Source: Rhodococcus rhodochrous (lineage in GTDB: Bacteria > Actinomycetota > Actinomycetes > Mycobacteriales > Mycobacteriaceae). Taken from it: DNA of 64,000 nucleotides. Both the position numbers and the translations under genes were made by a program. The notes beneath the pieces are model-generated. The model was not told the origin of the DNA. It saw only the letters and a list, made by a program, of their open reading frames with translations, and ran no database searches. Every line of letters starts with the position of its first letter. The first letter of the stretch is position 1. This document shows positions 51,601 to 54,777 of the stretch, piece after piece. Location of the stretch: assembly GCF_900187265.1 (NCBI RefSeq), contig NZ_LT906450.1, positions 3,773,444-3,837,443 on the forward strand, read 5' to 3'.

Positions 51601-54356
51601 TCGAGTTGTTCCGGAATACCCGCGAGAGTGTCCGTCCAGTACCGGATCTGTCGGGCGATCACCGAATCGGGATCGTCCTCGTCTCCGAGGGTCTCACGTT
51701 GCCACAGCGTGAAGTCGGCGTACTGGACGGCCAACGGCTCCCATTCCGGCTTCGAGCCACGGGTGCGGGACGCGTAGGCGACCATCACGTCGCGGGCGAG
51801 CGGGGCCATCGAGACGCCGTCGGCACTGATGTGGTGGGCCACGAGCACCAGGACGTGCTCCTCTGGCGCCACGCGGACGAGCGAGACCCGGAACGGGATC
51901 TCCACGGTGACGTCGAAACCGCGGAGGATCGGCACCCGGACGAGATCGGGGAGCGTCTCCGGTGAACCGTCGACCACCTCGAGGCGACGGGCGACGTCGA
52001 CGGCGTCGAGCACGAGCTGATGGCCGCGACCGTCCACCTCCGGATAGATCGTGCGCAACGACTCGTGGCGTTCGAGCACGTCATCGATGGCGGCGTCGAG
52101 CGCCTCGACGTCCAGGGATCCGTTCAACCGCACCGCGACGGGAATGTTGTTGACCGCGGACTCCGGATCGAAACGGTTGAGGAACCACATCCGCTGCTGC
52201 GCGAGCGACAGAGGGACCATGTCGCCGCGCCGACCCGCGGACAGTGCGGCGCGGTGCCCGCCCCCATCTGCGACAGCCGCGTCACAGGCGGCGGCGAGCG
52301 CTTCGACGGTCGGCGAATCGAAGAACGAACGCACGTCGAGCCGTACACCCAGGGCCGCGTCGAGCCGCGAGATGACGCGCGTAGCACTGAGCGAGTTGCC
52401 ACCGAGATCGAAGAAGTCGTCGTCGAGGCCGACTCGTTCACGGCCGAGCAAGGCAGCGAAGATCTGGGCGACGATCTCCTGTGTCCGGGTCTCCGGCGCG
52501 CGGTATTCGGTGACCAGCACCGAGAAGTCCGGTGCGGGCAGCGCTTTCCGGTCGGTCTTTCCGCTCGAGTTGAGCGGGAACTCGTCGAGCCGCACGTAGA
52601 GCGAGGGCACCATGTACTCGGGCAACGCATCCTTCAGCGTCGCTGCCAGGGCGCGCCGCTCGATCTCGTGCTCGGACACGACGTACGCGACAAGGTGATC
52701 ACCGAGTTCGGCGTCGCTGTGCACGACCGCGACGGCCTGCGAGATCCCCGGGACGTCGAGCAGAGCACTCTCGATCTCTCCCAGCTCGATCCGCAGACCA
52801 CGGAGCTTGACCTGGAAGTCGGTGCGGCCGATGTACTCGAGTTCACCGTCGTCCCGGCGACGAACGAGATCGCCGGTCCGGTACATACGAGAGCCGGGCT
52901 CCCCGAGGGGGTTTGCGACGAATCGATCCGAAGTCAGATCAGGTCGCGCGACGTAACCGCGGGCGAGCTGGATGCCGGCGAGATAGAGCTCGCCCTCTTT
53001 TCCGGCGGGGACGGGGAGCAGGTCTGCGTCGAGCACGACCAGATCAGTGCGGGCAACCGCACGCCCGATGGGCACGGACGTGACATCGGCCTCGGTGACC
53101 TGGTGATAGGTGACGTCGACTGCGGCTTCGGTGGGGCCGTAGAGGTTGTGCAACTGTGCGGAGGACAGCTCGCGGAACCGAGCCGCGGTCCGGGCGGGAA
53201 GCGCCTCTCCCGAGGCGAAGACGGCGCGCAGCGAGGTGACCTGCGCCGCCAGGGGTTCCGCCACGAACAATGCGAGCATCGACGGGACGAAGTGGACCAC
53301 GGTGACCCCGCGGTCGATCATGGTCCGCGCGAGATATTCGGGATCCCGGTGGCCGTCGGGCCGCGCGATGAGGACGCGGGCACCCACTTGGAGGGGCCAG
53401 AAGAACTCCCACACCGACACGTCGAAGGTGAAGGGCGTCTTCTGGAAGACGATGTCATCGGCCGTGAACCGGTACTTGCTCTGCCGCCAGCGCAGATTGG
53501 CGACGATCGCCTCGTGCTCGACGGCGACACCCTTGGGCCGGCCGGTCGAGCCCGACGTGAAGATCACGTAGGCCGTCGAGTGCGGGAGGAGCGGACGCAG
53601 ACGGTCGGCATCGGTGACGGGCTCGTCGGAGTAGCCCGAACAGTCCTCGACATCGATCTCGAGGATCGGGACGGAGACGTCGGCAAGCGCATCGCTACGG
53701 TCGGCCGAGGTCGTCAGGACTGCGACGGGACGTGCGGTCTCGACGATGTAGGCCACGCGGTCGGCAGGATGATCCGGATCGAGAGGTACATACGCACCAC
53801 CGGCCTTGACGATGGCGTACATGCCTACGAACAGATCGAAGGAACGGCGGATCGACAGGCCGACGAACGATTCGGTGCCCACCCCCGACTCGACGAGTCT
53901 GCGGGCGAGACGGTTCGCTCTGCGGTCGAACTCGGCGTAGGTGAGTGTTTCACCGGCGTATTCGAGGGCCACCGCGTCGGGGGTCGCGGCAACAGCATCG
54001 GCGAACAATCGGGCGAGTGTGTCGGTGGCCTCCGTAGGTGCTTCTCCTGCCGCCGACACGATGGAATCCGCATCCGCGAGAAGGCGCTCGACAGCGGCGC
54101 CCAAGGCACCGTCACCGGCCGCGACGAGGTCCGGCACGAGATTGCTCAGAGCGACCGGAACGAGGGCGTCCGGCCCCAGGACACCCCCCATCGCGGTATC
54201 CAGTTCCTTCAACTGCGTGTCGAGAGCGGCGTAGGTGATCGCAGCGTCGTTGTGGACGAGCGCTACGCGACCCGGTTCGGTGCCGACGACAGCCGATACC
54301 AGCCGTGGCAGATCCGCGACCGTCGGAGCCGGACGGTCCTGCTTTTCAATCGACAT
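32775..54356 (-). CDS. NRPS-2: central nonribosomal peptide synthetase, six modules plus trailing C
   Basis: Giant synthetase of 7193 aa, starting at the ATG 54354-54356 with a strong GGGAGG ribosome binding site. Approximate domains (residues): A-like stump 11-100, A1 110-622, T1, C2 711-1150, A2 1176-1682, T2, C3 1769-2212, A3 2234-2742, T3, C4 2829-3285, A4 3295-3799, T4, C5 3889-4339, A5 4349-4855, T5, C6 4942-5392, A6 5412-5915, T6 5915-5992 (GGDS type), epimerase-like 6002-6449 (motifs lost), C7 6455-6902 (HHILMDGWS), decayed A 6912-7193. Hand-read codes: A1 DVWHFSLVD (Ser), A2 and A3 both DVWSLALVH, A4 DALFLGVIL, A5 DPLISGGII, A6 DLWHLILVS. It starts with A after the C of NRPS-3 and ends with C before the A of NRPS-1, so both module boundaries are split between proteins. 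Confidence 0.95.
35010..36350 (-). other. epimerase-like domain with lost catalytic motifs
   Basis: It lies between a GGDS-type T domain and C7, where an E domain belongs. The HHxxxDG motif is degraded to THPYVTDP, and the EGHGRE-like motif reads EGSVRR, without its His. The C-terminal half keeps the E-type layout. It is probably inactive as an epimerase and perhaps structural. Confidence 0.65.
52490..54030 (-). other. A1 of NRPS-2, predicted serine-activating
   Basis: The pocket read from FDVSVWEFF to [12 protein letters not shown] gives DVWHFSLVD, identical to the classical Ser code (as in EntF). Its condensation partner is the last C domain of NRPS-3 on another polypeptide. Confidence 0.78.
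54057..54326 (-). other. N-terminal A-domain stump of NRPS-2
   Basis: Residues 11-100 begin [12 protein letters not shown] and resemble only the first 90 residues of an A domain ([11 protein letters not shown] is the A1 core), then stop, and the true A1 begins. Ungapped hand alignment with the C-terminal stump of NRPS-3 gives about 39 identities in 70 positions. Confidence 0.8.
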
Positions 54357-54492
54357 CTACCAGATCCTCCCAATACGCTACGAGCCGTCTTCCCCCCGAT
54401 GGACCGACGGGCACGCCGAACACACACACGAACCTTTGATCCTAGCGCGCCGATGAGAGCTTCCTGCGTCGGCTACGAGCCGCGTGAACCGA

Positions 54493-54777
54493 TCACCCCC
54501 CGTTCTGCACAGCTACGGCCCGGTCGATGATCGTTTCGAGAGCCGCACGGTATCCCTCGGCTCCCAGTGCTTGCAGCAGTCCGGGCAACAGCGCGGACAG
54601 TGCAACCGTGACGAGAGCATCCGGTTTCAGTGCTCCTCCCATCGACGACGACACCGTCGTCAACTGGACGTCGAGTTCTCGTAAGGTCACCGCCCTGCCG
54701 CCGTGCTCGAGCACGACCGTTTCCGGTGCCGTCTCGGCTGCAGCCGAGACCAGGGCGGGCAGGTCGGCGACAGTCGG
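54493..54777 (-). other. C-terminal A-domain stump of NRPS-3
   Basis: After the last C domain, 94 residues beginning PTVADLPALVSAAAE resemble the first 90 residues of an A domain and then end with the stop codon. They match the N-terminal stump of NRPS-2, sharing MGG.L.PDALV.VALS. It may be a docking element or a fission scar. Confidence 0.8.

Follow-up and report, generated by a model that had tools for sequence, protein, structure and literature searches.

How a peptide synthetase module that is cut between its C and A domains could still be held together is the question raised by a locus of Rhodococcus rhodochrous. The window, i.e., the whole stretch of 64,000 nucleotides that was analysed, carries on its minus strand three NRPS genes, NRPS-3, NRPS-2 and NRPS-1, which run leftward, and both junctions between them (NRPS-3/NRPS-2 and NRPS-2/NRPS-1) lie between a C and an A domain (Table 1). 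At the first junction, NRPS-3 ends with a C domain followed by 95 aa and NRPS-2 starts with about 100 aa followed by a complete A domain. These two segments, here called C-stump and N-stump, had been described in an earlier note as matching pieces of an A domain, which could be either a new kind of paired docking element or the scar of a duplicated A domain that was cut into two genes. We propose, with a probability of about 0.65, that they are a dedicated docking (assembly) pair serving NRPS modules divided between C and A.

Table 1. Positions of the NRPS genes, the stumps and the related features (window coordinates unless a locus is named).
Feature	Position	Strand	Remarks
NRPS-3	54493-63981	-	continues past the window edge; 8035-aa open frame in the genome
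NRPS-2	32775-54356	-	
NRPS-1	17209-32634	-	start codon uncertain (inferred)
Last C domain of NRPS-3	54817-56139	-	upstream part of the split module; bounds approximate (by eye)
C-stump	54496-54780	-	final 95 aa of NRPS-3; A-derived domain
Gap NRPS-3/NRPS-2	54357-54492	-	136 nt
N-stump	54057-54329	-	aa 10-100 of NRPS-2; domain homologous to the C-stump
First A domain of NRPS-2	52557-54020	-	downstream part of the split module; bounds approximate (by eye); P-loop motif present
C-terminal pseudo-A tail of NRPS-2	32778-33689	-	about 300 aa, start approximate; without P-loop motif
Arg-rich N-terminal extension of NRPS-1	32461-32562	-	before the A domain; start codon inferred
Small ORFs X and Y	L036 5434-6968; L037; L117; L120; L038		
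Stand-alone N-like ORF, host's own genome	L031 3351-3866; G000:C1 about 1763350-1763865	+	adjoins a likely carboxylesterase gene (by eye)

Similarity and origin of the two stumps

The C-stump and N-stump of the window have 39 identities in their best ungapped stretch of 70 residues, exactly the count that had been made by hand. Gapped alignment gave a score of 181 (maximum of 62 among 2000 shuffles), whereas the 12 A-domain N-termini of the window scored 29-77 against the C-stump and 44-91 against the N-stump, the 87 within the latter range being partly self-overlap. The stumps are thus closer to each other than to the A domains of the window, as had been claimed. In hhalign, a family alignment of 24 C-stumps matched one of 23 N-stumps with a probability of 99.8 (E 1.7e-27) over 95 columns, while the C-stump alignment matched the window A domains with 97.0 (E 9.3e-11) over only 59 columns and the N-stump alignment matched A domains with 94.6 (E 7.4e-8) over 63 columns. 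The matching stumps at the end of NRPS-3 and the start of NRPS-2 are therefore real, and they are homologous domains of about 95 residues. Among solved structures, the C-stump profile matched the A domain of LgrA (E 2.9e-7).

Homology of the stumps to A domains covers their first ~57-70 residues. The second half is predicted to be helical and gave no profile match to A domains, and direct reading of the sequences showed that the SGSTG-type (P-loop) motif of A domains is absent from both ~95-aa stumps and that the later catalytic core is lacking as well. The description of the stumps as an N-terminal piece of an A domain therefore holds for the first ~60-70 residues, the rest being the predicted helical part that gave no match. 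From these comparisons, the first ~60 residues of both stumps descend from the start of an A domain.

An AlphaFold2 model of the C-stump (43 sequences) reached a pLDDT of 89.7 and a pTM of 0.80, with the order H-E-E-H-H-H (helix 9-22, strands 27-31 and 34-37, helices 38-52, 58-69 and 73-97). Foldseek and VIA ranked the N-termini of A domains and related adenylating enzymes first, although weakly; in Foldseek they made up most of the top matches (E 0.5-2). The C-stump thus appears to be a small folded domain that arose from the start of an A domain and whose second half changed later. A tandem of C-stump and N-stump, translated across the one stop codon between them in locus L083, was modelled from 7 sequences as two similar domains whose relative placement was undecided (pLDDT 74, pTM 0.43).

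Retention of the stumps at the split

The C-stump query had matches in 37 of 101 relatives and in 16 of 58 genera, internal and weak matches included. Among the 24 loci with a C-terminal stump, an N-stump opens the next NRPS within the same 3.3 kb in 23; at the 24th (G044) it lies 10.5 kb further on. A scan of named genomes gave 46 loci with a C-stump, all 46 with both partners, in Rhodococcus, Rhodococcoides, Prescottella, Antrihabitans and Nocardia; these loci and the 24 above overlap in part in their genomes or strains (e.g., L002 and L051). In these 46 loci the C-stump lies 1-15 aa from the C-terminus and the N-stump close to where the next NRPS open frame begins, with the ORFs of one locus (L055) being frame-broken. 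A profile of the N-stump matched 104 of 251 genomes of the host's family, counting internal and stand-alone copies; in wider samples 7 of 298 genomes of the order and 4 of 296 of the class matched, all of them members of the host's own family. Spacing between the partners varies: in G047 they are 0.7 kb apart and both are kept, and G038 has a second, diverged stump pair 83 nt apart. At L076, L079, L083 and L085 the C-stump and N-stump genes touch, the TAG stop of one being directly followed, in frame, by the ATG of the other.

Because a stump was the query or profile in all these searches, 101 genomes were also searched with two stump-free queries, namely the C-domain end and the A-domain start, and 30 loci were examined per query. 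All 21 ORFs that end at this C domain bear a C-stump; the other nine loci continue into an A domain at normal spacing and none of them has a stump, a weak 33-bit match in L231 with the same normal spacing being taken as the A-domain start itself. Likewise, all 24 ORFs that start at this A domain bear an N-stump, while of the remaining six loci four are fused without a stump, one (L274) is fused and contains an internal stump, and one runs off the end. The association of stump and split was significant on both sides (Fisher 7e-8 for C, 21/21 vs 0/9; 2e-4 for A, 24/24 vs 1/5), uncorrected for phylogeny and with largely the same junctions counted on the two sides. Fused homologues among the best matches lacked an inserted stump in 13 of the 14 readable cases.

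An orthologous split that lacks the stumps had been named in advance as evidence against a functional pair, and so had a dN/dS near 1. At this junction the same split without stumps was found at none of the 21 C ends and none of the 24 N starts. Omega, pooled over 15 close species pairs, was 0.164 for the C-stump and 0.156 for the N-stump, compared with 0.116 for the flanking C region and 0.121 for the flanking A region; medians over all 362 pairs, many of them near saturation, were 0.36 and 0.31 for the stumps and 0.36 and 0.28 for the C and A flanks. The stumps are under purifying selection.

These results bear on the explanation that the start of a duplicated A domain was cut into two genes and has not yet been lost. 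Such a scar would fit the A-domain relationship of the first half, and the single stop followed by ATG in the four loci with touching genes resembles a recent cut. However, the stumps occur in five genera, their omega is about 0.16, the newer helical part belongs to a domain with a confidently predicted fold, and no C end (of 21) or N start (of 24) of this split is bare. Together with the pairing in 46 of 46 loci, this leaves the scar part of the earlier note unsupported, and we regard it as highly improbable.

Matching elements at the C- and N-termini of consecutive subunits are thus present at this split, with one exception that concerns another junction. In G052 (L209) an NRPS ends directly after its C domain without a stump, and is followed by a ~400-aa gene and then by an NRPS that begins with an N-stump; a normal stump pair is present on the same contig, 60 kb away. 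This amounts to half of a stumpless split.

In a tree of 105 short rows, one branch (support 100/98) has 39 of the 40 N-type rows and seven rows labelled stand-alone on one side; on the other are the 35 C-type rows without exception, together with the internal stumps and the A domains. Two of the seven labels need care: L022 is really an N-stump on a cut locus and L048 is doubtful. The C rows cluster together in 34 of 35 cases, with weaker support (89/83), and both partners of the second pair of G038 are exceptions that group with internal stumps on long branches. On this tree, the C and N forms would have diverged before these genera separated. This separation bears on the possibility that the stumps self-associate and the synthetases assemble as dimers. 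The occurrence of the domain in four settings (C-terminal, N-terminal, internal and stand-alone) is what might be expected of a self-associating module, but the separation of the C and N types in the tree fits pairing of C with N better than self-pairing, and we consider homotypic dimerisation improbable.

Docking and copies outside the split pair

If the stumps act as a docking pair, an ancestral A-domain start of ~60 residues, made up of a helix, a beta-hairpin and a second helix, would have lost all catalytic parts and gained helices of their own. C-stump and N-stump would then bind each other as a pseudo-symmetric heterodimer, where binding, geometry and specificity are all inferred, and thereby hold the C domain and the A-T part of one module together. 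The carrier of NRPS-2, loaded by its own A domain, could in this way reach back to the C domain of NRPS-3, which would receive the upstream peptidyl donor.

Retention of stumps on unlinked genes is consistent with docking in trans. In G671 and G775 the C-stump and N-stump genes are found on different contigs (1.5 and 0.70 Mb, and 0.72 and 0.14 Mb, respectively) and both stumps are kept; these two stump genes were the only matches of the N-stump profile in each genome. The two genomes group together in the tree, near Nocardia vermiculata, and the unlinked pairs may represent one rearrangement event, in an inactive line. In G052 and G621 the normal pair shares its contig with an extra N-stump, so that a single C-stump subunit might choose between two N-stump partners.

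Other copies are found outside the split pair. Fused NRPSs of ~11.3 kaa from other genera carry a stump inside one chain, usually twice, in each case between C and A, and therefore the split is not needed to keep a stump. Directly upstream of the internal-stump NRPS, two small stump-like ORFs (X and Y) occur in five genomes (G027, G056, G033, G035 and G060); in G022, G030, G034 and G040 they were not found at that position. Stand-alone N-like ORFs of Rhodococcus have no NRPS motif in the surrounding 8-9 kb. One of these is located in the genome of the host itself, its kin are present in G008, G012, G014 and G017, and more small-frame matches occur in other genomes; this type could be a free docking domain. 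Finally, an N-stump opens an NRPS with no C-stump found nearby in L042, L043, L044, L045, L207 and L209, and in L207 the upstream NRPS ends in a carrier domain. In view of these internal, free and unpartnered uses, the stump domain is therefore better seen as a mobile interaction or spacer module of which the split pair is one frequent form, and 'docking pair' may describe only one use.

The same copies leave room for a functional role other than a docking pair, in which each stump would act solely within the chain that bears it, as a spacer or cap where the C domain ends or the A domain begins, or would have a third protein as its partner. The internal stumps of fused NRPSs would fit this, as would the unpartnered N-stumps, the one that faces a bare C domain in G052, and the X and Y ORFs of the five genomes. 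In addition, a mirror-tree analysis of 45 loci detected no co-evolution of the stumps in excess of that seen in the flanks (partial r 0.056; a value at least this high in 391 of 2000 permutations). However, the lack of a stump in nearly all readable fused homologues indicates that a C or A domain as such needs none, and both homologous stumps are found together at this split. We therefore consider such a role other than docking unlikely, though it is the most serious of the alternatives. A paired docking element, as first suggested, fits most of the comparative evidence; the bare C domain of G052 and the internal, stand-alone and unpartnered copies speak against it.

Known docking systems and the second junction

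COM and PAX domains sit in pairs on the ends of NRPS subunits and determine their order, at E/C or PCP/C junctions; COM consists of a helix and a hand on the C domain, and PAX of a three-helix bundle (PMC9113145). The stumps resemble them as subunit-end pairs, but are found at a C/A junction and are A-derived, which COM and PAX are not described to be in the available text of that paper. The bhD (TubC_N) domain has an alpha-beta-beta-alpha-alpha fold, occurs at PCP/C or PCP/Cy junctions and has as partner a disordered peptide (SLiM) of under 15 aa (PMC9113145). It is likewise a small domain at NRPS subunit ends, and the predicted H-E-E-H-H-H order of the C-stump starts like its helix-strand-strand-helix-helix order. 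However, both stump partners are homologous domains of ~95 aa, with the C-stump predicted to be folded and not a SLiM, and at the stump junction the C domain comes before and the A domain after. Membership in TubC_N (PF18563) was considered and rejected: this family was absent among the 14 Pfam families listed for 43 C-stumps at E<=10, and hhalign of five TubC_N sequences against C-stumps gave a probability of 0.33. The host genome contained no TubC_N match. The DHD of trans-AT PKSs, ~70 aa appended to the upstream protein, serves a junction inside a module (KS/DH), is largely disordered and one-sided, and binds the surface of a catalytic domain (PMC9113145). It shares the within-module junction with the stumps, whereas the stump split carries a domain on both sides. 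By the descriptions in the available text of PMC9113145, where none of COM, PAX and bhD is said to come from a catalytic domain, the stump pair differs from COM, PAX, bhD and DHD in place, origin and symmetry.

The second junction of the window has a different arrangement. The C-terminal tail of NRPS-2 is colinear with an A core, a part of 183 aa being 74% identical in the nearest relative, and has a net charge of -32 over its last 290 aa, while the working A cores of the window range from -8 to -18. A scan covered 22 loci (L128-L149) that were chosen by similarity to this tail, with only negatively charged tails kept. Seventeen of the 22 were readable on both sides; in these the upstream ORF ends in a tail of this kind with a net charge of -22 to -35 over the last 290 aa, and the following ORF has, ahead of an A domain with P-loop, an Arg-rich N-terminal extension (+5 to +11, counted from the first Met or, if none was found, from the beginning of the ORF). 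Tail and extension are possibly a second, electrostatic type of docking. Thus, two neighbouring C/A splits carry two different attachments derived from A domains.

Taken together, we lean slightly towards a new class of megasynthetase assembly domain, in which the first subdomain of an A domain became a homologous docking pair for C/A splits and was reused internally and as free proteins, in a lineage that would bridge such splits with dead pieces of A domains (the stumps, and the acidic pseudo-A tail facing an Arg-rich peptide). If true, a natural pair at the C/A boundary would show how a module that is cut there still works, and would provide a native tool for splitting and recombining NRPSs at this boundary. 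It would also exemplify how a fragment of an enzyme can be recruited as an adaptor, for which numerous species pairs, fused relatives, partners on unlinked genes and copies without a partner offer test cases.

Apart from the junctions, the translations show that NRPS-1 (about 19354-29334, minus strand) and NRPS-3 (57000-63981, minus strand) each contain long, nearly identical module repeats, which suggests recent module duplication or gene conversion.
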